NCBI GenBank assembly: GCA_019310485.1
Contig: JAFDEF010000009.1
Location: forward strand, 1-64,000
Length of the DNA: 64,000 nt
Reading direction: 5' to 3'
Source of the DNA: Deltaproteobacteria bacterium
GTDB taxonomy: Bacteria > Desulfobacterota > DSM-4660 > Desulfatiglandales > HGW-15
Each line of letters opens with the position of its first letter. Positions within the stretch are counted from its first letter, which is position 1. Positions 1 to 11,242 of this stretch are shown here, one piece after another. The position numbers were made by a program, and so were the translations under genes. Under the pieces are notes generated by a model that worked only from the letters and a program-made list of their open reading frames with translations, made no database searches and was not told where the DNA came from.

Positions 1-72
1 AACGGCGGGCGATTTTACTTCCAGCCTTCCAGCCAGAAGAACGGCGTCTGCGTCATGCCAGGCGCACATTAA
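1..72 (+). CDS. possible 3' end of a gene cut by the window edge
   Basis: The first frame is open from base 1 and ends with TAA at 70-72, giving 23 residues that end in VCVMPGAH. The composition looks like coding sequence but is too short to identify. The stop codon lies inside the conserved left end (ATTAACTACC) of the palindromic repeat that starts at 68, so the repeat itself supplies the end of this reading frame. It could equally be chance open frame. Confidence 0.25.
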   Translation, partial: NGGRFYFQPSSQKNGVCVMPGAH

Positions 73-185
73 CTACCCCGCCGCAAGCGGACGGGGTATC
101 AATCGGAAATTTTCCTAACGCCCCAAGGGGCGGGAATCAAACCCCTGTCCGCCTCTGGCGGATTAATCCGCCTTTGGCGGATTAA
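68..185 (+). repeat. tripalindromic dispersed repeat, copy 1
   Basis: First of eleven copies in the window. It starts ATTAACTACCCC and has three successive palindromes: P1 (CCCCGCC/GGACGGGG around GCAAGC), P2 (CGCCCC-AA-GGGGCG) and P3 (TCCGCC-TCT-GGCGGA). P3 is present twice, joined by TTAA. It lies just past the 3' end of the leftward peptide gene and could work as a transcript-end structure there, which is inference. Confidence 0.9.
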
Positions 186-211
186 ACAAACAACAGCACA
201 AAAGTAAGCAC

Positions 212-391
212 CTAGCTGCTTGATCTTGTCTGGCAAGGGGTGACATTGTATCCTTGGAGCCTCAAGCAATCATTGTTCACATTCTGAGGACCAGGGTTTC
301 CTTGGTATTTGCAGACCTGGAGCACTGACTCCTCAGGTCCTCCTCTAGCAAGCACCAGCAGTTTAGGCTTTTTCCAGGTTTTCTTGCTCAT
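212..391 (-). CDS. candidate radical-SAM-modified peptide precursor, 59 aa
   Basis: A 59-residue peptide that I propose is the substrate of the flanking maturation enzymes. Its ATG overlaps the TGA of the upstream radical SAM gene (ATGA), so translation is probably coupled. Residues 1-26 look like a leader: a basic start (KKTWKKPK), a hydrophobic run LLVLA, then the acidic stretch RGGPEESVLQ. The remainder is rich in Gly, Asn, Gln and Pro, has Cys at 27, 42 and 53, and ends TRSSS. It is too short for standard gene calling. I have the impression that leaders of the form WxxPxLxVLxRxxPEExVLxxC recur in PqqD/radical SAM loci, but cannot verify this here. No similarity search was possible; the call rests on position, coupling and leader/core layout. 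Confidence 0.75.
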   Translation of the reverse strand: MSKKTWKKPKLLVLARGGPEESVLQVCKYQGNPGPQNVNNDCLRLQGYNVTPCQTRSSS

Positions 392-1686
392 AATGCAGAC
401 ACCCCCTCTTTAGTCTTCAGTTTTTTATCATTGCCCTGAAAAGAAGCATGCCCTTCAGGGGCTTCGTCTTCCCTGGAATCGGGCAAACCCTCCTTGCCCT
501 GAATAAGCACCATCCTCTGGTGGGCGACCTCGCAAAAGTATTCAACTGGCAGGTCGAACTTTCCAGATTCCAGATAGGCGTTTGCAGGGCACCACATACA
601 AAGGTTGACGATGGGACAGGAGCCACAATTTTCGAGGTAATCGGTTCTTTCAGAATGCATGTCCCGAATGGCAGGGGTAAACTTGTACCAGGCCTCAGCA
701 AGGCTTCCCCTCCTGAGATCATACGTACAGTCGGGATGAGAAAGGGAAGAGCAGAGCCGAAACCTCCCTTCACAGTCAACGAAGAAGCTACTCATACCAG
801 CACCGCAAAAGAAAAGCTTGTTGCTAGAGGTGTGGCAAAACTCAGTGTTGACTAACATGTTGCACTCTCGGTTGAGGGCTTTAAACCGGTCCGGATCAGA
901 GCGTTCAAGTGCCACTATCTGGTTGGCTGAGAGCCTTTCTGCTTTTATCTCCGCGTTTCTCAACTGGTTGCCGTCAACCCTGAGGTGGAGAAAGGGGTCA
1001 AAACGAAACGCCCCATTAGTCCTCTCCCGGCAAAATCTGGCAATTGCTGGCAGGTCTCGATAGTTGCTCTTAAGAACCATAGCTTTCAGCCGAACTCTGC
1101 TGCCGCATTCAAGGAGATGGTCCAGCCCCTGTCTAAAAGAAAAATAGGAACCCGGATGTCGCGTCACCTTCTCATAGGTATGCCTGGATGCCCCGTATAC
1201 AGATACCTCTACATCTCTGGGAGGGTATTTTGCAAAAAGCTTAATATGTTCACGGTTGATAAGTGTTGCATTTGTAAAAAGCGTCACAAGGAGACCCTTT
1301 TGCTTGAGGTAAAGATAGATATCAGGAAAATCTTCTCTCAGGAGCGGCTCTCCACCTGTTACAAGGCACCAGAGAGCGCCCATTGAGACTGCCTCGTCCA
1401 CGATGTCTTTAATGTCTTCAAAACAAAGCTCTTTCTGCTTTGCATCCCTGTCTCCTGCCGGACGATTGATGTAACAGTGCCGGCAGTTGTTATTGCAGCG
1501 CGATGTCAATTCAAGCGAAAAGGAAAGTGGCACCCTGCTTAAACCAATCTTTTCCCACAGAGAGTACTCAGCGATACTCATTAATGAAAAAAATGACTCA
1601 CTCGCATTGTCTTTCTTGCCACCCATCAAAAAATCACCGCAGTTGTTGATACTTAAAACCCAGCCTATTTTGTCAAAAGTCCTCAC
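388..1686 (-). CDS. PqqE-like radical SAM/SPASM peptide maturase (second of two)
   Basis: Radical SAM enzyme expected to modify a ribosomal peptide. The 4Fe-4S/SAM motif is CxxxCxxC at Cys64, 68 and 71 (TSRCNNNCRHC), followed by TGGEPLLREDF. The C-terminal SPASM region has the usual spread of cysteines (FFCGAG, CEGRFRLC, ENCGSCPIVNLC, CMWC, FC) for auxiliary Fe-S clusters. The chosen GTG start overlaps the PqqD-like stop (GTGA), implying coupling. Internal ATGs at residues 21 or 36 are alternatives, and the second would match the length of the paralogue at 2077. Its stop overlaps the peptide gene at 212. Two such enzymes beside a PqqD homologue match the ScmE/ScmF pair of SynChlorMet cassettes (from memory); I cannot say which is which. 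Confidence 0.88.
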   Translation of the reverse strand: MRTFDKIGWVLSINNCGDFLMGGKKDNASESFFSLMSIAEYSLWEKIGLSRVPLSFSLELTSRCNNNCRHCYINRPAGDRDAKQKELCFEDIKDIVDEAVSMGALWCLVTGGEPLLREDFPDIYLYLKQKGLLVTLFTNATLINREHIKLFAKYPPRDVEVSVYGASRHTYEKVTRHPGSYFSFRQGLDHLLECGSRVRLKAMVLKSNYRDLPAIARFCRERTNGAFRFDPFLHLRVDGNQLRNAEIKAERLSANQIVALERSDPDRFKALNRECNMLVNTEFCHTSSNKLFFCGAGMSSFFVDCEGRFRLCSSLSHPDCTYDLRRGSLAEAWYKFTPAIRDMHSERTDYLENCGSCPIVNLCMWCPANAYLESGKFDLPVEYFCEVAHQRMVLIQGKEGLPDSREDEAPEGHASFQGNDKKLKTKEGVSAL

Positions 1687-1994
1687 TCAGTTGATGTTTT
1701 GACCACTATTTTTCTTTTCAGCAGCTCATTTGTCAGGCCCAGGACATCGGATTCGATCTCCTTTTCATCTCCCTCAAACTCTTCACACAGTTCTGAAACA
1801 ATCTCACTCAGCTTCTTTTTACCGTCAAGCCTGTCCCATATTGCCCTTCCGGTCTCATTTAGGGTGAAAAGTTCGTCTTCCAAGTCCCCTATCCCTGAGA
1901 CGAGAGGAACTATGATAAGCTCCCCTTCGATGTCTCTTGCCACAATGTCCCTGGAAGGGACATATACACAATCAAGCCTCACCTCTTTATCCAT
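1683..1994 (-). CDS. PqqD-like peptide carrier (RiPP recognition element)
   Basis: A 103-residue PqqD-family protein, the small winged-helix-like domain that binds the leader peptide and presents it to a radical SAM enzyme. The family core is visible: an N-terminal strand region (VPSRDIVARDIEGELIIVP), then DELFTLNETGRAIWDRLDG, then a helical part with SEIVSELCEEFEG and a final VLGLTNELLKRKIV. ATG at 1994 is preferred over an in-frame GTG at 2009 because CAGGAG sits 7 bases upstream of it. It lies between the two radical SAM genes and overlaps the second by GTGA. It is probably equivalent to ScmD of SynChlorMet cassettes. Confidence 0.88.
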   Translation of the reverse strand: MDKEVRLDCVYVPSRDIVARDIEGELIIVPLVSGIGDLEDELFTLNETGRAIWDRLDGKKKLSEIVSELCEEFEGDEKEIESDVLGLTNELLKRKIVVKTSTE

Positions 1995-2076
1995 GTTTCG
2001 CTCCTGCACCTGTCAAGGATTTATCCATGATCCACCTGGCCAAGCAAAAGAGCTCGGACAACACCACTTGTTCAAG

Positions 2077-3300
2077 TTATGCTAAAGCACAGGTTCCTTG
2101 TCCTGTTCTTGTTTGTTCGCCGCCGGGAGCGGTGCCTGAAAGACTCTCAAGCCTTTGTTCCCAGTCTTTCACCTCCCAGCCGAGCTCTCCTTCCTCCAGC
2201 AAACCAAGATGTCTGGCCTGTGCATGTGCGATTTCACACAGGTATTCTACCGGAGAATCGAGCGTTCCATACTCTATCCACGAGCGGGCAGGACACTGCT
2301 CACACATCCCCATCAGGAAGCACCGTGCACAGCGCTTGAGGTAGCCGGGGTTGGAGGCCTTTGTCTCCCTAATTTTCGGGAAAAACACTTCCAGCGCCTC
2401 CTTGAGGGACCCTGCCCTGAGATCATAGACGGTCTCAGGATGTCTCAGCATCATGCAAAGCTGGAAGTTACCGTAGGCGTCAACGCAGCCTCCTCCAATC
2501 CCGGCTCCACACGAAAAAAGCTTCTCTCCTTGTGGCCCCATAAACTTGGTGCAAAACTCTCTCAGGGCGTTCTCATATCCGTTCTGCGCGCTCATCAGGG
2601 ATGCCACTGTTTCTGCAGGAGATAGTCTTTTTCGCTTGATTAGATCGTTCTTGACCTTTGAATCCCTACGGCAGCGAAGATAAGAGGCTCTTGAAAACAC
2701 AGGTGGTCCATCCATCCATGGGATTGTGGATGTCCAAGATGTGAGTTCTTCAGCATCTGTCATATTATCCTTAAGCAACACCCCTTTGATGATAAAAGGA
2801 ACCCCTTTTTCAAGAAGAAGGTTCATACCCCTCCGTGCCGCCTCAAAAGATCCGGGAGACCTTGTTATGCGCTCGTAAGAGTTTTTCCTGGCTCCGAACA
2901 TGGTGACTTCGATTAATTCAAGGGGTGGTATTTTGAAGAAAAGCTCCGCCAGAGCCCGTGTAATACATGTTGCGTTTGTAAAAATTACCACCTTGAGCCC
3001 CAGTTTTCTGGCAAATACGTAAAGCTCTTCGAAATCCTCCCTTAAGAGAGGCTCACCACCTGTAAACCTCACCCGCAAGCAGCCCAGAGAGGCAGCCTCG
3101 TTTAGAATATCTTTTAGTTCGCTGGTTGAAAGTTCCCTTTTTTGGGCATCGACATCCCCAGGCGGCAGGTTTATGTAGCAGTGCACGCAGTTATTGTTGC
3201 ATCTCTCTGTGAGCTCGAGATCAAGGGAAGCAAGAGGCAAAGAAAGGCCTTTCCATAGGTCTTTGTTCCATGCATTAACTTTTTCAAAATAAGCTGTCAT
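2077..3300 (-). CDS. PqqE-like radical SAM/SPASM peptide maturase (first of two)
   Basis: A 407-residue radical SAM enzyme with CxxxCxxC at about residues 34, 38 and 41 (TERCNNNCVHC), then FTGGEPLLREDF. It has SPASM cysteines near the C-terminus (FSCGAG, FQLCMM, KRCARCFLMGMC, EQC, YLC). ATG at 3300 is preferred over 3315 because GGAAGG lies 6 bases upstream. It resembles the enzyme at 388 throughout (CNNNCxHCYINxPxGDxDA is shared), so the two arose by duplication, but they differ enough to suggest different modifications. Its stop is 82 bases before the PqqD-like ATG. A proline/glycine-rich C-terminal tail follows the last cysteines. Confidence 0.88.
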   Translation of the reverse strand: MTAYFEKVNAWNKDLWKGLSLPLASLDLELTERCNNNCVHCYINLPPGDVDAQKRELSTSELKDILNEAASLGCLRVRFTGGEPLLREDFEELYVFARKLGLKVVIFTNATCITRALAELFFKIPPLELIEVTMFGARKNSYERITRSPGSFEAARRGMNLLLEKGVPFIIKGVLLKDNMTDAEELTSWTSTIPWMDGPPVFSRASYLRCRRDSKVKNDLIKRKRLSPAETVASLMSAQNGYENALREFCTKFMGPQGEKLFSCGAGIGGGCVDAYGNFQLCMMLRHPETVYDLRAGSLKEALEVFFPKIRETKASNPGYLKRCARCFLMGMCEQCPARSWIEYGTLDSPVEYLCEIAHAQARHLGLLEEGELGWEVKDWEQRLESLSGTAPGGEQTRTGQGTCALA

Positions 3301-3336
3301 GTTCAGACCTTCCATCCACTTAAGATGGTTATCAGC

Positions 3337-4359
3337 TCAGATACTTTTTAATAGGCTCACTGCTGCTCCGCTCCTGTCAAAGCAAAGCGTGTAGCAGGGC
3401 ACTTCCCTGACAATCTTTTCCACCAACAGCAGAGTTTTTTCCCACCACTCAGCTGTAACAAAAGGCTTTATGATGCAGGGAAGAAGCCTGCGGATGATCT
3501 CAGGCTTACTCCTGAGAGGCACGAGCTGATTTTTGTGCCCCTTTTCCAGGAAAATCAGGCCTGCCAGAGGAACTGAATCAGGAGAAACATCCGCCACATC
3601 ACCAGGGCTCCAGGTGCCGTATACCTTAAATCCTTCCTCCCGTTTTCGCACAATAATCCTATCATCGCACAGAATACGGGCACAATGCCTGAGCATAGTC
3701 ACCATAGTGGACTTTCCTGCATCCTTGCTCCCTACAAAAAGGAGTCCCCTCCCCTCAAGCGACACTCCTGCAGCATGCAGAAGACAACCTGCCCTGTGGG
3801 CAAAAACCTTTGAAAGGATGACCTGATCGGTTGGAAACAGGGTAATAGAGTCCAGATTCCCCTTGCTGAAAAATTCTTTGCTTTTGTTGTGTATTGTTCC
3901 CCTAGAGTAGTCTTCATTGAAAACCCCAACCTGGTATATCTCTCTTTGTGCAGGAAACCTCCTGACCGAATCGCTGGAGGTTTCAGCAAATCGGCTCGCT
4001 CTTTTCAAAAAGCCGTGACTCAAACTGAAGATCCTCTTCCATACCCCGGAGATTGAGCCGAACCTGGATCCTGAAAAAGCCACATAGGTCCAGGCTTCGC
4101 TGTTTTTAAAAATCAGCCAGGGATTTTTCCAGTACAGTGGCTCTCCAAGATCTTTAAATCCAGGCATAGAAAAAAAATGTTTTATTGAAATCACATCCTC
4201 TCCAGGCACATCTATTTCAAAAGGCTTGAGCTTTCGCGAAAATGTTGCATCTGTAATGGGGAGTTCGGATTCAACCTTGATAGTAATTCCGCCTATCCCA
4301 TAGTAGCGCTGATTTTGAGTTTTTGCTGTTTTACCGGGCATAGCCTTTTCCAGCATCAT
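3337..4359 (-). CDS. HPr-kinase-like P-loop protein of the peptide cassette
   Basis: A 340-residue protein whose C-terminal half resembles the HPr kinase/phosphorylase fold: AGCLLHAAGVSLEGRG precedes the P-loop GSKDAGKST near residue 207, followed by LCDDRIIV. The N-terminal half is not recognised. HPr-kinase-like proteins recur in lasso-peptide and PqqD/radical SAM loci, sometimes phosphorylating the peptide. Here the substrate is unknown, and the position fits the conserved protein ScmC of SynChlorMet cassettes (from memory). There is no HPr or PTS gene nearby. A good promoter lies just upstream and the first radical SAM gene follows at once, so this is probably the first gene of the operon. 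ATG at 4341 is an alternative start. Confidence 0.75.
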   Translation of the reverse strand: MMLEKAMPGKTAKTQNQRYYGIGGITIKVESELPITDATFSRKLKPFEIDVPGEDVISIKHFFSMPGFKDLGEPLYWKNPWLIFKNSEAWTYVAFSGSRFGSISGVWKRIFSLSHGFLKRASRFAETSSDSVRRFPAQREIYQVGVFNEDYSRGTIHNKSKEFFSKGNLDSITLFPTDQVILSKVFAHRAGCLLHAAGVSLEGRGLLFVGSKDAGKSTMVTMLRHCARILCDDRIIVRKREEGFKVYGTWSPGDVADVSPDSVPLAGLIFLEKGHKNQLVPLRSKPEIIRRLLPCIIKPFVTAEWWEKTLLLVEKIVREVPCYTLCFDRSGAAVSLLKSI

Positions 4360-4513: not shown

Positions 4514-5635
4514 TCAATACTTTCTTGATATGATCCTTGAGAAAAGCTGGACAAATCTTTTCCAATAGAGCTGCCAGGATTTAAGGTCAGGGCTCGTGGT
4601 AAATATCTGCCTCAATATTTCCGAGCGTGGAAACAGTGTCTCTACAACGAATGAAAACCGCCCCCAATAATCTTCGCGTGGCGAAAAAAGAACAAGAGGC
4701 GCCCATAAAGGCAAAGAGTCCTTTTTTACCCGCCGTTCAAGTGCTAGCCTTTCAAAAAAGTGCAATCTATTTTTTTTCATGAAATCTCTGAGGGGGCCGG
4801 GAGGGTAAAAGTCAAGTGCTCGACACAGGAGGGAGAGAATAATGAAAAGAACTTTTCTCAAGCCCAGTTCATCTGCTCGAGTAAAAAGTAATTTCCACTC
4901 CGGTTCACCCCAGCCAGCCACGAGGTATCGGATATCCACCAACCATATGAGCCTGTTTACCCTGTGTTTAAGCGCATGAAGACCAAGATAGAAAACCTCG
5001 TCACATGCATTCAAGCGCAATGCCTCTTGATCTTCAAATCTAGTGACCGCTGCTCGCTGCAAAATGCGCTCCTCTTCCCGACCCAGTAAAAGGCGTCGGG
5101 CATGGATCCGATCTGCCCACATAATTTGGGTATGAAGATCAAGGCTGATCGACCCTTTTCTGAACGTATTCGGGTATACTGCGTCTCTTTCATACCCCTG
5201 ATCTTTCAATATGGATGTGACTTGCATGTATTGCTCAGGGAAAACCAGCAGGTCAATATCGGACATTGGCCTGAGGCCAACATCGCCGTACGGGTTTTCC
5301 AGCAGGCAGATTCCTTGAAGGAGCAGTGGCCGGATCCCCCTTGCCCTAAATCTTGAAAGGACATCTCTTAAGGCGTTGATGAGCTTTAGGTTAAACCTTA
5401 TTGTCCCGTAGTAATGTGACTCAAGCCTGTTCCTCTGCCCCTCACTAAGAGACTCTATTGCCCCTGAGCTTACAAGACCCTTGTAAAGAAGACTTCCCAA
5501 TCCTTCTCTGATGGCCGTCTCGAGCAGATGGTTTGGGTCCACTTTTCCTACCAGCTCTTTAATCCTGGAATAATGCCGGGGATCGAGCCTCGATTCTATT
5601 GCACAAAGCAAGATTTCTCGCTCATTAGGGTTCAT
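4514..5635 (-). CDS. nucleotidyltransferase-fold protein (NTP_transf_5 type)
   Basis: A 373-residue member of the uncharacterised nucleotidyltransferase family (Pfam NTP_transf_5). The metal-binding DxD is in LRPMSDIDLLVF, and the third acid is probably in SLDLHTQIMW. LLLQGICLLENPYGDVG precedes the active site, as in the family. The C-terminal half is helical and positively charged. These proteins recur beside PqqD-like, HPr-kinase-like and S26 peptidase genes in peptide loci, but their reaction is not known to me. The ATG has GAAGGA 8 bases upstream. The 208 bases between it and the peptidase gene hold no convincing gene. Confidence 0.75.
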   Translation of the reverse strand: MNPNEREILLCAIESRLDPRHYSRIKELVGKVDPNHLLETAIREGLGSLLYKGLVSSGAIESLSEGQRNRLESHYYGTIRFNLKLINALRDVLSRFRARGIRPLLLQGICLLENPYGDVGLRPMSDIDLLVFPEQYMQVTSILKDQGYERDAVYPNTFRKGSISLDLHTQIMWADRIHARRLLLGREEERILQRAAVTRFEDQEALRLNACDEVFYLGLHALKHRVNRLIWLVDIRYLVAGWGEPEWKLLFTRADELGLRKVLFIILSLLCRALDFYPPGPLRDFMKKNRLHFFERLALERRVKKDSLPLWAPLVLFSPREDYWGRFSFVVETLFPRSEILRQIFTTSPDLKSWQLYWKRFVQLFSRIISRKY

Positions 5636-5843: not shown

Positions 5844-6347
5844 TCAGCTTCCAATCATCCGTTTGAGCCTGGAGGCGATAGTGTGACCTACAAGCCGGGA
5901 TTTGACCCTGAGCGTGTCCAAGGGAATATCCCTTCCTTGTCTTCTAACACAAACAACTTTCCCTAGAATTTGACGGAGAGCTACCGTTTCATCGCAATCT
6001 CCGGTCGTGTCACTTCGGACAATAAACTCCACTTTGTTTCCATCACCCTGATTTATCCTTGCGATGCGGTGCGCGATAAGGCTTCCCCCCGAATCGTAAA
6101 GGATGATATCCCCCGCCTTCAATAGAGACGGTGCAATCGGGTTTATTGTAATGATCTCGCCATCTCGAATAGTCGGATACATGCTTCGGCCTCTAGCCTT
6201 GAACCTCACACTCCTGCCTTCGCGAAGTAGCCCTACAATAACCTCTGTCGCAAGTTGCGGTGAGCCTGGCACTCTTTCAACCAGACCGGATTCTTCGAAA
6301 CCCTTCCCGGATTTTCCCTCAAACCTTGCAATTTCCTTTTTTTTCAT
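5844..6347 (-). CDS. S26 signal peptidase, SipW/ER-type
   Basis: Small serine protease of the signal peptidase fold, about 167 residues. Catalytic serine is in GRSMYPTIRDGEIITI. The second catalytic residue appears to be the His of LIAHRI, as in ER/archaeal/SipW-type enzymes, rather than the lysine of bacterial LepB. No clear transmembrane anchor is visible, which is unusual for LepB. The open frame continues upstream to 6545, but that part is translated repeat DNA, so I start at ATG 6347; its ribosome site (GAAGGG) is very close and the start is uncertain. By position it is a candidate for trimming the modified peptide or its leader. Confidence 0.7.
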   Translation of the reverse strand: MKKKEIARFEGKSGKGFEESGLVERVPGSPQLATEVIVGLLREGRSVRFKARGRSMYPTIRDGEIITINPIAPSLLKAGDIILYDSGGSLIAHRIARINQGDGNKVEFIVRSDTTGDCDETVALRQILGKVVCVRRQGRDIPLDTLRVKSRLVGHTIASRLKRMIGS

Positions 6348-6440: not shown

Positions 6441-6584
6441 ATTAACTACCCCGCCGGAAGCGGCCGGGGTATCGATCGGAAATTTTCTTAAAGCCCCAAG
6501 GGGCGGGGAATCAAACCCTCGTCCGCCTCTGGCGGGCTCGTCCACCTATAATTGTGCCATATGGCATTATCTCTGGCGGATTAA
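6441..6584 (+). repeat. tripalindromic dispersed repeat, copy 2
   Basis: Copy with P1 changed to CCCCGCCGGAAGCGGCCGGG and normal P2. Its last P3 is split by an inserted 23-base palindrome centred on TGCCATATGGCA, giving TCCACCT-insert-CTCTGGCGGA. The same insert occurs in copy 5. Confidence 0.9.
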
Positions 6585-6677: not shown

Positions 6678-6928
6678 AGCATAGCCGAGGGGCTGCGTTA
6701 CGCTCATCCCTCGTCCCTGCGGCGTACGTCAATGTACGTCTCACTTCTCGGGATTTCGCAAGCCTTGCATCTCATGCTTGCTGGTGAACAGGGTTACCCC
6801 CAAAGCATTTAGTTTTGGTAGACAAACCAAAAGTTGACGGTGGATTTAGGCATGCATCCCGTCCGCTAAGAGTCCGCACTCAGCCTAACTTGAGTTCACC
6901 TTGCCTGAAAGAGTGGCTTAACTATTTC

Positions 6929-7046
6929 AATCCGCCGGAGGCGGATTAATCCGCCGGAGGCGGACAGGGGTTTGATTCCCCGCCCCTTGGGGCGGTTAAG
7001 ATGGTTTGCGATTGATACCCCGCTGCTTGCGGCGGGGAAGTTCATT
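6929..7046 (-). repeat. tripalindromic dispersed repeat, copy 3 (inverted)
   Basis: Reverse orientation: two P3 units (TCCGCCGGAGGCGGA form) come first, then P2, then P1 ending GGCGGGGAAGTTCATT. The P3 loop has changed while the stem still pairs. It faces copy 2, with 344 bases between them, just upstream of the ABC transporter promoter. Confidence 0.9.
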
Positions 7047-7126: not shown

Positions 7127-8935
7127 ATGGAAAGCTGGATAGCATATATCAAGAAAGGACTTTCCCGCACCCTTCCCCATGACCCAATTGCGGGCAAAGA
7201 AGGATTTTCAGGAACCAAGGAAAACCTGAAGAATCTGCAACCTTACTTAAAGAGACACTGGCGAAAAGGGTTGATCGGACTAGCCCTAATTACGCTGGCA
7301 TCTCTTCTAGCTTTCCCCCAGCCCTTAATTACACGCTTCATTATTGACGATGTTATCTTGAGCCGACAGCTAGCACTTCTGTGGGGGGCAATCGCTTTAT
7401 TGATTTTAATCGTGCTTGCACAAAAGCTTGTTCAAACCCTGGAGAACTTCTACTTTGCCGGCCTCGAACAAGCCCTTAGCCTTGAAATCCAGCATGACCT
7501 CCTTGAGCGCACTCTTCGGCTGCCGAAAGCTTTTTTTGATGAGGTGCAAACGGGCTATCTTATGTCGCGCCTGTCTTCAGATGTCGCAAATCTGCGATGG
7601 TTTTTCTCCAGTACCGTTGTCTATATTGTGAGCAATATTTTACGTTTTGCCGGCGGGCTGGCATTACTCTTTTACCTTGAATGGAGGCTTGCCCTTATAG
7701 TGTCGGTGATTCTGCCCGGTATCGTCTTTTCCATCCGCTTTTTTTCCACCAGGATTCATGCCCTGAGTCATCAAAGCATGGAGCAAGGGGCAAATGTTTC
7801 AACTCGTTTTCAGGAATCCTTATCTTCGGCCTCTTTAATCAAGGCTTTTTCCTCGGAGGCACGGGCTGTAAGACAGCTCACGGCTGAACTTAAAAAGGCC
7901 CTCCACCTGTCCCTTGAGCTCACGGCGCTCAGCTCAGTGGCCAATCTCGCAATCAGCTCAATGCCTGGTATAGCAAGGGTTATAGCCCTCGCCCTGGGAG
8001 CATACTGGGTTATAGAGGCGCACTGGACCCTGGGATCGTTAATCGCATTTCAGGCATACCTCGGGTATGTGTTCGGCCCGGCCCAGTACTTGGCCACGGC
8101 AAATCTTGACCTGCAGAGAGCCCTTGCAGCCCTTGAGCGTGTCTCTGCACTTTTTAACCTGGTTCCTGAAGAAAACATAGGTTCCGGCAAAACCGTTACT
8201 AGATTGAAAGGAGAGGTAGAATTCAAGAACGTTTCTTTCTCTTATGATCAAGGCAACCCAGTGATCAACGATATATCGTTCCGCGTAGGCCCTGGTGAAA
8301 GAGTTGCTATCGTGGGCCCGAGCGGTGCAGGCAAAACGACGCTTCTGGCTCTTGTCCTTCGGTTCTACAGGCCCACAAAAGGGGAAATTTACTTTGATGG
8401 ACTTCCGGCCTCACACTACGAACTCGTGTCCTTGAGAAATAGAATAGCTTACGTCTCACAGAGCACACGCCTTTTCTCAGGCACAATAATGGACAACCTC
8501 TGCTTTGGCAATCCCCGGGCTCCGGAAGATCTTGTGACTCAGGCTACGCAGGCTGCGGGCATTCACGATTTCATTGAGAGCCTCCCTGAAGGCTACCAAA
8601 CCAGGATAGGAGAAAACGGGGTAAAACTATCTGAGGGACAAAGACAACGCCTTTCCATTGCCCGGGCGCTGGTCAAAAGAGCGGACATTATGGTGCTCGA
8701 CGAACCGACCTCTTCACTGGACAAGAAGACGGAGGCTTCGTTTATTCATGCTCTTCCTAAGGTTCTTCAAAGCAAGACCCTCTTTGTCGTGACAAACAAT
8801 TCCACCCTTGTAAAAGATGCCACTCTTGTCCTGCTCTTTGATGAGAATCATCTCTTATGTACAGGGACCCACGAGTTTCTTCTAGAAAAAAGCGAATACT
8901 ATCGCTCCCTGATGATACGCGACGGAGCGGATTAA
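7127..8935 (+). CDS. ABC exporter, fused membrane and ATPase domains
   Basis: A 602-residue half-transporter of the MsbA/peptide-exporter type that would work as a homodimer in the inner membrane. Six membrane segments occupy roughly residues 45-340. The ATPase domain has Walker A GPSGAGKTT, Q-loop in AYVSQSTRLF, signature LSEGQRQRL (SEGQ instead of SGGQ) and Walker B ADIMVLDEPTSSLD. There is no N-terminal C39 peptidase domain, so leader removal would need a separate protease, such as the S26-type protein encoded divergently. Its place beside the peptide-maturation operon suggests export of the matured peptide. A lipid or drug exporter is the alternative. Confidence 0.88.
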   Translation: MESWIAYIKKGLSRTLPHDPIAGKEGFSGTKENLKNLQPYLKRHWRKGLIGLALITLASLLAFPQPLITRFIIDDVILSRQLALLWGAIALLILIVLAQKLVQTLENFYFAGLEQALSLEIQHDLLERTLRLPKAFFDEVQTGYLMSRLSSDVANLRWFFSSTVVYIVSNILRFAGGLALLFYLEWRLALIVSVILPGIVFSIRFFSTRIHALSHQSMEQGANVSTRFQESLSSASLIKAFSSEARAVRQLTAELKKALHLSLELTALSSVANLAISSMPGIARVIALALGAYWVIEAHWTLGSLIAFQAYLGYVFGPAQYLATANLDLQRALAALERVSALFNLVPEENIGSGKTVTRLKGEVEFKNVSFSYDQGNPVINDISFRVGPGERVAIVGPSGAGKTTLLALVLRFYRPTKGEIYFDGLPASHYELVSLRNRIAYVSQSTRLFSGTIMDNLCFGNPRAPEDLVTQATQAAGIHDFIESLPEGYQTRIGENGVKLSEGQRQRLSIARALVKRADIMVLDEPTSSLDKKTEASFIHALPKVLQSKTLFVVTNNSTLVKDATLVLLFDENHLLCTGTHEFLLEKSEYYRSLMIRDGAD

Positions 8936-9036: not shown

Positions 9037-9351
9037 TCAGAGATCTTTCACAACTAGATCCTTTACCACATTGTCGTGGCTTACAGGATCAATCCTTATC
9101 TGATCTTTGCTCTCCACCAAAGTGTTGCAAGCTAGCACTGCTTTGCCGCCAACCTTCACATAACACCTCTTACAGGTGGCATGGTTGCAACAGCTGTGCT
9201 GGAAAAAGGAAATAGAGGGATCATAATTCTTTGCAATGGTCTCAAGCAGTTCTTTCACTGTTATCGGGAGTGCGGGAACGTGAACAGTGTACCTCTCATA
9301 ATAAGGCTCCTTACCTGCGTCTGGATCGTATCTGAACACTTCTACTATCAT
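9037..9351 (-). CDS. 2Fe-2S subunit resembling the N-terminal half of FrdB/SdhB
   Basis: A protein of about 104 residues matching only the plant-type ferredoxin domain of fumarate reductase/succinate dehydrogenase iron-sulfur subunits. It begins MIVEVFRYDPD, a typical FrdB start, and has the cluster motif C-x4-C-x2-C-x11-C within CNHATCKRCYVKVGGKAVLAC-like sequence. The C-terminal domain that carries the 4Fe-4S and 3Fe-4S clusters is absent. ATG at 9351 is preferred because GAAAGG is 7 bases upstream. It follows the flavoprotein gene with 64 bases between and is probably its electron-transfer partner. Confidence 0.75.
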   Translation of the reverse strand: MIVEVFRYDPDAGKEPYYERYTVHVPALPITVKELLETIAKNYDPSISFFQHSCCNHATCKRCYVKVGGKAVLACNTLVESKDQIRIDPVSHDNVVKDLVVKDL

Positions 9352-9415
9352 GAACATGCCTTTCTCCGTTGCGGAAGACAAACCTTTTCACAGTTTTACA
9401 GGTACTGTTTTAGAA

Positions 9416-11242
9416 TCAGAAAAACTCCTTTTTCAAGTACTCCTCGATATTTTTATACACCTCTCTAGAAGGCTCCATAAATCTTAGGTCAGGGCTTCTT
9501 TTTCTAAGACTCAGAGAGCTTCCTTTAAAGGAAATTACATGACGGTGCAAAAAATCAGCATTATAAACTCTGACATGATCGCTCCTCAAGTGTGTCCCTC
9601 TACTCTCTTTCCTTGCCATTGAGCACATGAGACTCGCCTGAAGGCAAAGACAGACATTCTTTAGCTGCAATAAATTCAGAAGTTCTGAATTGTAATGACG
9701 GCTGCGATCACTCACTCTCAATCCTGAGATTTTTTCCTCTCCTATATGCCTGACCCTGGATAGGGCACTACCACTGTCTGATTCGTTTCTTACAAGTCCC
9801 AAGCCTGTGTCAGCCACATACCTGAGTTCATCCCATAGTTTGTAAACATTGTATGAACTCCGCCCGGAATGTAAGTTGTCCTTTACCAGTTCGCTAACTT
9901 GCTCTTTGATCTTATCCAGATATGCTGAGTCCAGTTTGCTCTCCTGAGACTCTTTTGCATACTTTGAAGCCTCAGCCCCGGCTCTATAACCCTGCACGAG
10001 CATTTCAGAGAGCCCACTTTCCACCCTGAAGGCTCCATAGAGCCCGGAGGCTGCTTCTCCACACGCGTACAATCCTTCAAGTGTCGTCTTCATGTGTTCG
10101 TCTACCAGTATCCCGCCCATACAATACTCGCTCGAAATCCCAACCTGCCAAGGCTTCCCCTGCTTTATCATGTCGTGAAAAGGCCGTATATTTTCTCCCC
10201 CGAACCGCCATTTACCCTTGTAAAGCATCTTGAGCAAGAGATTCATCTTGAGCAGAGACTTGAGGTAGCTGAGGCGCTTGACGCTTGAAAAATCAAAGTA
10301 AAATTCCTCACTGCCGGGCCTGCCCTCGCATTCCATCTCTTTGGTCCAATAGTAAAGGTTGATCAACTTCCATAATTTGGCATTTTTTCCAAGTGAGACT
10401 ATGTTTTTGTCCGCACTCTCAAGAACGCTTTTACCCGATGACGTGTTAATAGCAGGTTGCGCCAAACGGGCCGCAAACCACACAAAGGGATATATGGAGC
10501 CCTTCAAATGAGGGGGAGAAAGGGCGACACCGGGAAGAAACAGCTGAAACTCCATGTCTGCCAGTTCGGCGCCTGCTCTCAATGCCATTGCCATTCCATC
10601 TCCCGTGGAATCGCTACTCGTGCATTTAAAGGAATAGGGTTGAAAGCCCCCTGAGGCAATTATCACTGCTTTTGCATGAATTACGTGAAATTTGCCATTG
10701 TAAAGGTCCAGCGCCAAAGCACCGTTTACCCTGTCACCGGATCTAATGAGGTCAATAACCATTGCATCTTCTATGATCTTTATATTGGGATATCGCCTTA
10801 TCTGTTCCCTGATCACAGCCCCGACGGTGGTGTTTGCCGTAATCCAGCCCGAGGGGGCGAGGAACCTCACCCTTTTCCCCATCGCTCTTGCCAGGGATAG
10901 GAATTCATGCACCCTTTTGCCGCAATCCTCCACGAAATCCTGCACGAGACATTGCTCACTCAAATAAAACGATGCTTTTACTATTGTCTGAAAAAGTGCG
11001 TTCTTGGTAAGCGACCTGTCCGCCTTTTTCTCCCCAAGTTGATAGGCGGTTTCACCGTCAATGGAGAGAGTTGATGTAGAAATTATCGCATTTCCACTTT
11101 TTCCAACCTTGCCCTTGGAAACCAGAAGAACATCCACTCCGCTCTTTGCTGCAGCCACGGCAGCATTGGAGGCGGCACCAGAGCCTCCTATAACGAGCAG
11201 GTCTGTCTTGAGTGGGATCTCTTCATTCACTCTTTGTCCCAT
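9416..11242 (-). CDS. FAD-dependent fumarate reductase/succinate dehydrogenase-family flavoprotein
   Basis: A 608-residue flavoprotein of the FrdA/SdhA/NadB/AprA superfamily. The FAD-binding start is TDLLVIGGSGAASNAAVAAA. The capping/active region contains GLYACGEAASGLYGAFRVESG, keeping the arginine that is catalytic in FrdA. The usual HYTMGG becomes EYCMGG, so the substrate may not be fumarate. The C-terminal ESRGTHLRSD matches the helical domain of the family. With the 2Fe-2S gene directly downstream it forms a two-subunit redox enzyme with no visible membrane anchor. Possible substrates include fumarate, an enoate or another unsaturated acid; I cannot decide. Confidence 0.78.
   Translation of the reverse strand: MGQRVNEEIPLKTDLLVIGGSGAASNAAVAAAKSGVDVLLVSKGKVGKSGNAIISTSTLSIDGETAYQLGEKKADRSLTKNALFQTIVKASFYLSEQCLVQDFVEDCGKRVHEFLSLARAMGKRVRFLAPSGWITANTTVGAVIREQIRRYPNIKIIEDAMVIDLIRSGDRVNGALALDLYNGKFHVIHAKAVIIASGGFQPYSFKCTSSDSTGDGMAMALRAGAELADMEFQLFLPGVALSPPHLKGSIYPFVWFAARLAQPAINTSSGKSVLESADKNIVSLGKNAKLWKLINLYYWTKEMECEGRPGSEEFYFDFSSVKRLSYLKSLLKMNLLLKMLYKGKWRFGGENIRPFHDMIKQGKPWQVGISSEYCMGGILVDEHMKTTLEGLYACGEAASGLYGAFRVESGLSEMLVQGYRAGAEASKYAKESQESKLDSAYLDKIKEQVSELVKDNLHSGRSSYNVYKLWDELRYVADTGLGLVRNESDSGSALSRVRHIGEEKISGLRVSDRSRHYNSELLNLLQLKNVCLCLQASLMCSMARKESRGTHLRSDHVRVYNADFLHRHVISFKGSSLSLRKRSPDLRFMEPSREVYKNIEEYLKKEFF

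Follow-up and report, generated by a model that had tools for sequence, protein, structure and literature searches.

A Short Cysteine-Containing Peptide Gene Next to Radical SAM Enzymes: Evidence for a Precursor Family and a Proposed New RiPP Group

Introduction

Near one end of the window (here the whole stretch of DNA analysed, 64,000 nucleotides of a deltaproteobacterial contig, supplied without annotation), a reading frame of 59 codons lies directly after a gene for a PqqE-like radical SAM (rSAM) enzyme. This raises the questions of whether such a short frame is a gene, whether its product is the precursor of the cassette in which it lies, and which modifications the neighboring enzymes may introduce. 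A preliminary description, made from the sequence alone, had proposed a precursor peptide and had assigned the cassette to the SynChlorMet type.

The Peptide Gene and Its Cassette

Translation of the minus strand from 391 to 212 agrees with the earlier account of a 59-residue, three-cysteine peptide, with Cys at 27, 42, and 53 and the stretches WKKPKLLVL and GGPEES. The described overlap with the PqqE-like gene is likewise present, since the rSAM frame ends at 388 and the peptide ATG occupies 391-389, giving an ATGA overlap. The features are as follows.

212..391, minus strand: precursor peptide gene, 59 amino acids plus stop, the only convincing copy in the source genome
314..391, minus strand: leader-like part, residues 1-26, with a W6xxP9 motif and then PEE.VL, from alignments; the boundary is a guess
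215..313, minus strand: core-like part, residues 27-59, with C27-K28, C42, C53, and a terminal Ser59 (C-x5-S end), from alignments
400..407, minus strand: ribosome-binding-like AGGGGGTG, 8 bases 5' of the peptide ATG
388..1686, minus strand: radical SAM/SPASM enzyme R2 (ScmF-like), PF04055 77.7 bits, over the cut-off; TIGR04251 77.7 bits, cut-off 400
1683..2009, minus strand: PqqD-type RiPP recognition element (RRE), PF05402 61.6 bits, over the cut-off, and alignment
2077..3315, minus strand: second radical SAM/SPASM enzyme R1, PF04055 76 bits, over the cut-off
3337..4359, minus strand: HprK-like kinase, ScmC-like and without an rSAM fusion, TIGR04249 37.6 bits, below the cut-off; conserved residues and fold
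4514..5635, minus strand: NTP_transf_5 nucleotidyltransferase-like protein, PF14907 145.5 bits
5844..6347, minus strand: archaeal-type signal peptidase-like protease, PF00717 25.4 bits (cut-off 23.3); TIGR02228 43.3, below the cut-off of 51.85
7127..8935, plus strand: MsbA-like ABC exporter, divergently oriented upstream of the minus-strand genes, PF00664 and PF00005 over the cut-off; MsbA model 371.6 bits (cut-off 602)

Read from 5' to 3', the minus strand carries the signal-peptidase-like gene, NTP_transf_5, the HprK-like gene, an rSAM, PqqD, an rSAM, and the peptide. The preliminary description spoke of cassettes with two PqqE-like enzymes and a PqqD homologue; it did not mention the kinase, the NTP transferase, the signal peptidase, or the exporter, whose presence points to C-terminal phosphorylation. 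Because the AGGGGGTG pattern was chosen after the site had been seen, the 0.16 matches per window expected by chance can serve only as a rough guide, and a second match lies within the window; promoter and terminator scans gave results at chance level.

Assignment of the kinase rests on a weak model match together with conserved residues and fold. H195, K216 (P-loop), D232, and D233 are kept at ≥90% in 52 aligned sequences, and on the basis of our own alignment we take them to be the H-K-D-D residues on which lasso kinases are reported to depend (PMC9266682). In a search with the AlphaFold model (pLDDT 88.9), all of the best 50 of 181 matches were PEPCK or HprK/P structures, with low to modest TM-scores (0.2-0.4 by the model, up to 0.5 by HprK). 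A profile search against solved structures returned mostly P-loop matches of ABC transporters, with HprK among them at E 0.01; we consider the fold search, which uses a predicted model, to be the more telling of the two, and the predicted fold matches the HprK/PEPCK type. In the peptidase, Ser55, His93, and Asp113 are invariant in all 29 aligned sequences (of 87 segments), and LppS requires Ser, His, and Asp (PMC13381572). The peptidase probably starts near 6347, since the open frame up to 6545 crosses a dispersed repeat.

This repeat, of about 120 bases, occurs at window positions 68-186, 6441-6547, and 6926-7045, flanks the peptide cassette on both sides in partly inverted orientation, and overlaps the 5' portion of the signal-peptidase reading frame; window positions 1-600 have 51 matching places in the source genome, mostly due to it. 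A fumarate-reductase-like flavoprotein gene and a 2Fe-2S gene (9037-11242) adjoin the cassette and lack relatives among the other 93 loci in the set described below.

A Family of Related Precursors

When 99 genomes were searched with this one peptide, four matches at E<1e-5 appeared in addition to the window's own. The strongest (G044; E 7e-13, 57% identity) lies directly after an rSAM gene, those in G045 and G011 lie beside or inside an rSAM cassette, and that in G041 is on a separate contig of a cassette-bearing genome. A weaker match (G015, E 0.15) follows the rSAM of a one-rSAM cassette. A second match (C67) was discarded as antisense within a long ORF, and the search of the source genome for a second precursor yielded only a chance-level match (E 0.9). 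Eleven columns are invariant in the alignment of six peptides, the window's included: K4, P9, E20, E21, V23, L24, C27, K28, P35, C42, and C53.

An HMM seeded with these six peptides was iterated on 27,724 six-frame segments of 94 loci, to which the window contributed its first 15 kb only. The result was 105 hits, of which 104, spread over 71 loci, had E<1e-3, and the reversed sequences of the same loci gave none. Three pairs of loci are contig duplicates with identical hits (L053/L095, L055/L099, and L056/L109). Another 27 hits were contributed by 20 stretches chosen because they hold a precursor, some of which are earlier contigs again. Of 124 distinct hits, 122 have the leader or the Cys pattern; two L130 fragments were excluded, and a few fragments remain among the 122. 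In a sample of 395 genomes from the phylum, 19 match at E≤0.01 (source genome included), four of them weakly (E 9e-4 to 0.008, with internal stops in two).

Library models were compared with 108 of the 122 precursors, 14 odd or fragmentary ones being omitted. No Pfam model matches more than one of these members (best E 0.048), and the best NCBIfam matches are lasso-leader models at E 0.003 (six members) and 0.036 (three members); for the window peptide, no NCBIfam model was found at E≤1. The 122 distinct members, whose membership is observed directly and most of which lie in cassettes of this type, form a precursor family fitted by no NCBIfam or Pfam model, and no paper describing it was found in the open-access literature. 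Precursor-bearing records are titled Deltaproteobacteria, Omnitrophota, Chloroflexi, Chlorobiaceae, Acidobacteriota, Actinomycetota, and others, and four loci (L097, L104, L114, and L162) come from records titled as archaea; since nearly all of these records are MAGs, binning errors are possible.

Leader, Core, and C-Terminus

Across relatives, the leader and the cysteines are kept with a variable stretch between them, as the preliminary description had expected of a precursor. The leader-like half that it proposed is borne out for the WKKPKLLVL stretch, whose motif is kept, and not for the GG of GGPEES, which relatives replace (RGRPEEA, RNKPEEQ). GG was accordingly rejected as a cleavage signal because it is not conserved. 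Two other positions for the leader cut were weighed, a lipobox-like site before C27 and an LPP-like site 16 residues after W, and the evidence favors neither. The motif [WY]xxPx[LVIAFY] is present in 116 of the 122 precursors; by analogy with the aromatic-xxP motif of LPP leaders (PMC13381572), W6xxP9 would be expected to bind the PqqD-type RRE.

Serine is observed as the last residue in 107 of the 122 precursors (Thr in six, another residue in nine), against a background Ser-final rate of 10.6% among 20,161 segments of the same loci that are 40-120 aa long. Of the 105 peptides with three or four Cys, 79 have the last Cys exactly six residues from the last residue, and 58 of the 63 with four Cys have the third Cys 3-4 residues ahead of the last. 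Presence of the terminal Ser does not follow that of the kinase, since 86 of 97 peptides end in Ser where the locus has a kinase hit and 21 of 25 where it has none; many of the latter loci are contig ends or solitary precursors, and in L112 and L132 several kb upstream contain no kinase hit.

The coding selection that had been named as a check is observed as well: leader dN is below dS in every pair for which dS could be estimated and the leaders differ. Cores change faster than leaders; their dN exceeds dS in some pairs and falls short of it in others. In the L098 pair the values of dN and dS are 0.13/0.37 for the leader and 0.89/0.49 for the core, and in the L107 pair those for the core are 0.97/1.88; dS is saturated in many pairs, including the window versus L055 (leader dN 0.18, core dN 1.03). 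A chance ORF, which the shortness of 59 codons might suggest, is refuted by the homologues, the absence of hits in the reversed control, and the slow change of the leader, and the 59-residue minus-strand frame is confirmed as a real gene.

Linkage of Precursor and Cassette

Related loci were taken as the best 80 of at least 478 matches to an rSAM alignment in a profile search of genome contigs. When the small-frame check put forward in the preliminary description was run on these, a family member was found in 61 of the 80, which upholds the claim of a cassette precursor; in the other 19 of these best 80 of at least 478, the precursor was not detected. Linkage is observed directly: 59 of 95 precursor hits in the 80 loci lie within 500 bases of a cassette gene, and 85 of the 95 share the strand of the nearest rSAM, PqqD, peptidase, or kinase gene, with a median gap of 220 bases. 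Within the best 80 of at least 478 loci, the kinase was detected in 57, PqqD in 72, the peptidase in 70, the exporter in 29, the NTP transferase in 34, and two or more rSAM segments in 65; these counts rest on our own HMM thresholds, and contig ends cut many loci. A common order in relatives is kinase, R1, [peptide], PqqD, peptidase, R2, [peptide], exporter, and NTP transferase. A one-rSAM subtype, mostly with YxxP leaders, was also found (L057, L058, L060-L062, L228, and L231-L234). Some precursors lie away from cassette genes on the stretch examined (L054, L217, L220, L223, L225, and L229), and that of L222 is about 12 kb from its cassette.

Co-occurrence in 40 genomes gave a similar picture. 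An rSAM at E≤1e-50 is present in 12 of 14 genomes with a strong precursor match, in none of four with a weak match, and in none of 22 without a precursor, the last group having been hand-picked by the analyst from the listed genomes. Of the two strong-precursor genomes lacking such an rSAM, G359 has a more distant rSAM beside the precursor, and G286 has a kinase and a peptidase without an rSAM on a short contig. That the frame at 212-391 encodes the precursor of its cassette is therefore well supported.

A precursor in this position could also be a scaffold, as in PQQ, from which a small-molecule product is made out of a few residues of the C-terminal tail; the presence of PqqD and PqqE-like enzymes would suit this, as would the C-x5-S tail, the most fixed part of the core. 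The variable multi-Cys cores and the one to six precursor hits per locus (fragments counted) are better suited to peptide products, and we regard a scaffold role as distinctly improbable.

The one-rSAM cassettes of L234 (4280-6502) and L231 (13698-14558) adjoin polysaccharide chain-length and XrtA-type genes, neighbors that recall the capsule link reported for LPP. Such neighbors, found at some loci, were not used to assign a function to the cassette.

Kinase-rSAM Fusion and Core Cysteines

In 44 of 102 kinase segments (a set that includes SynChlorMet-type loci and a duplicate contig), an rSAM-sized N-terminal part is observed in one reading frame with the kinase. This part contains CX3CX2C in 42 of the 44 and was recognized as Radical_SAM by Pfam in all three cases tested. 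Fusion co-varies with the number of core cysteines, which could be counted in 116 of the 122 precursors: four or more Cys from CK onward are observed in 51 of 59 precursors from fused cassettes, 2 of 32 with a stand-alone kinase, and 18 of 25 where the locus lacks a kinase hit. In both unfused exceptions (L105 and L152), the kinase frame reaches the contig start. With these two excluded and the largest Cys count per locus used, fusion and the fourth Cys are concordant in 49 of 50 loci, the odd one being L130; when the median count is used instead, 32 of 36 loci with the fusion and 26 of 28 without it are concordant. Eight three-Cys peptides do occur in fused cassettes.

Twelve changes of the fusion label are needed on the best rSAM tree, which has 86 rows. 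Ten non-overlapping pairs on this tree gave the same direction in 10 of 10 in 262 of 300 draws (p 0.002) and in 9 of 10 in the rest, none being opposite; when only supported branches were used, four pairs remained (p 0.125). The window itself has two rSAMs, a free kinase, and a three-Cys peptide. Since one-rSAM cassettes (such as L057, L060, L062, L231, and L234) also carry three Cys, the number of cysteines does not equal that of rSAMs, and the rule therefore concerns the third rSAM rather than a strict count. The fusion and its matching extra Cys offer a falsifiable rule as to which enzyme modifies which Cys.

This covariation also bears on whether the cysteines are the sites of radical chemistry at all. 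The peptide could be a true precursor whose rSAMs form C-C links, epimerize, or decarboxylate, with the cysteines serving in disulfides or metal binding. The solved chains nearest to R2 by sequence (SkfB, cytosylglucuronate decarboxylase, and MoaA) are compatible with this, as their scores are similarly weak and the chemistry of R2 is consequently not fixed by sequence. An association of a third rSAM domain with an extra core Cys in 49 of 50 loci is hard to explain on such terms, and we judge non-Cys chemistry unlikely, without dismissing it.

Proposed Maturation and Relation to Known Systems

We favor the reading, with a probability of roughly 0.7, that the cassette represents a new RiPP group in which rSAM chemistry and phosphorylation of the paeninodin/LPP type act on one peptide; all reactions are inferred. 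RRE-guided links, phosphorylation, decoration, cleavage, and export are proposed because the gene set matches the LPP core plus rSAMs. The PqqD-type protein would bind the WKKPKL stretch of the leader, and the two rSAM/SPASM enzymes might introduce one Cys-based link each into the core (C42 and C53). The HprK-like kinase would phosphorylate the C-terminal Ser59, as in paeninodin, and the NTP transferase may add a further group to the phosphorylated Ser59, as PsmN does in pseudomycoidin. The archaeal-type signal peptidase is predicted to remove the leader and the MsbA-like transporter to export the product. Many relatives have, in addition, a kinase that carries a third rSAM domain, and a peptide with a fourth core Cys. 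A broader reading sees a widespread RiPP class with add-on rSAM modules, in which a third rSAM comes with an added core Cys and cross-linking is coupled to phosphorylation on one peptide because this rSAM is welded to the terminal-Ser kinase; it remains tentative, and we would put it below even odds.

The closest known system is that of the Linear Polyphosphorylated Peptides (LPP; Popov et al. 2026, PMC13381572), which shares all five core parts with the window: archaeal-type signal peptidase, discrete RRE, HprK-like kinase, NTP transferase, and MsbA-like exporter. For the peptidase and kinase, this match rests on weak models, conserved residues, and fold. LPP resembles our family in its aromatic-xxP leader motif and in sometimes having several precursors per cluster. 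In contrast, the window family adds two (often three) rSAMs and a Cys core and occurs outside Bacillota; its leader (WKKPKLLVL, PEE.VL..CK) lacks the HQ and FET of the LPP leader YxxPxVLxHQxIxFETxxS. The LPP kinase acts on core Ser3 and not on the last residue, a point against our reading, whereas the window family has a terminal Ser. The term "Radical SAM" is absent from the LPP text (PMC13381572).

Paeninodin and pseudomycoidin lasso peptides are alike in having a C-terminal Ser as the kinase target, an HprK-like kinase, an NTP transferase, and a WxxP leader (PMC9266682, PMC13381572), and roles of the kinase and NTP transferase, with PsmN as the decorating enzyme of pseudomycoidin, are described in PMC9266682. 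The window family has the C-terminal Ser and the HprK-like kinase with putative H-K-D-D. It differs in that rSAMs replace the cyclase and B2 near the cassette: neither a lasso macrolactam synthetase nor a B2 peptidase was found among the ten proteins of the cassette and its neighbors, and the one B2-like match in the source genome is on another contig. Sactipeptides and ranthipeptides share rSAM/SPASM maturases and Cys-containing precursors; their models gave no match below E 0.01 with the 108 precursors, the nearest being an SSH-motif rSAM RiPP (0.014) and StsA (0.096). Sactipeptides and ranthipeptides are not known to have a kinase branch. The proposed system would join radical chemistry with phosphorylation, perhaps glycosylation, of a terminal Ser. 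The peptide provides a substrate, fitted by no searched library model, for a large group of PqqE/PqqD-like cassettes, whose chemistry is therefore directly testable.

Distinction from SynChlorMet

SynChlorMet (TIGR04248-04252) is like the window cassette in having two rSAM/SPASM enzymes, a PqqD protein, and the HprK-like ScmC, and it differs in gene order and in its ScmA-like precursors, which have Cys-Gly repeats and end in Ser in 1 of 18. The label given in the preliminary description cannot be maintained on scores (ScmE 77.7 against a cut-off of 400 bits, ScmF 77.7 against 400, ScmD 28.4 against 100, and ScmC 37.6 against 125), and its statement that SynChlorMet lacks a known precursor is contradicted by the curated model TIGR04252 (SCM_precur_ScmA), which the window peptide does not match; neither does any of its 108 scanned relatives at E 0.1. 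As a candidate companion of ScmF-like rSAMs, our precursor was rejected, being found in 0 of 20 loci (15 regions over the TIGR04251 cut-off and five below it).

The window could still hold a SynChlorMet cassette with a divergent ScmA, given that the same gene classes recur in the 15 regions with ScmF over the cut-off (L195-L209: kinase in nine, signal-peptidase-like in nine, ABC exporter in seven, NTP_transf_5 in seven), on account of which SynChlorMet also resembles LPP plus rSAMs. With four enzyme models far below their cut-offs, and with a different, YxxP-bearing, Cys-Gly-repeat peptide in 16 of the 20 SynChlorMet-type loci that lack our precursor, this is scarcely tenable. Six of 12 such repeat peptides scanned match TIGR04252 ScmA (E 0.1), and we claim no novelty for them because they are of the known ScmA kind. 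The ScmA-like precursors in L197, L199, L201, L202, L205, L210, L212, and L214 have many C-x-x-G repeats and are longer and more varied than the 49 positions of TIGR04252 suggest.
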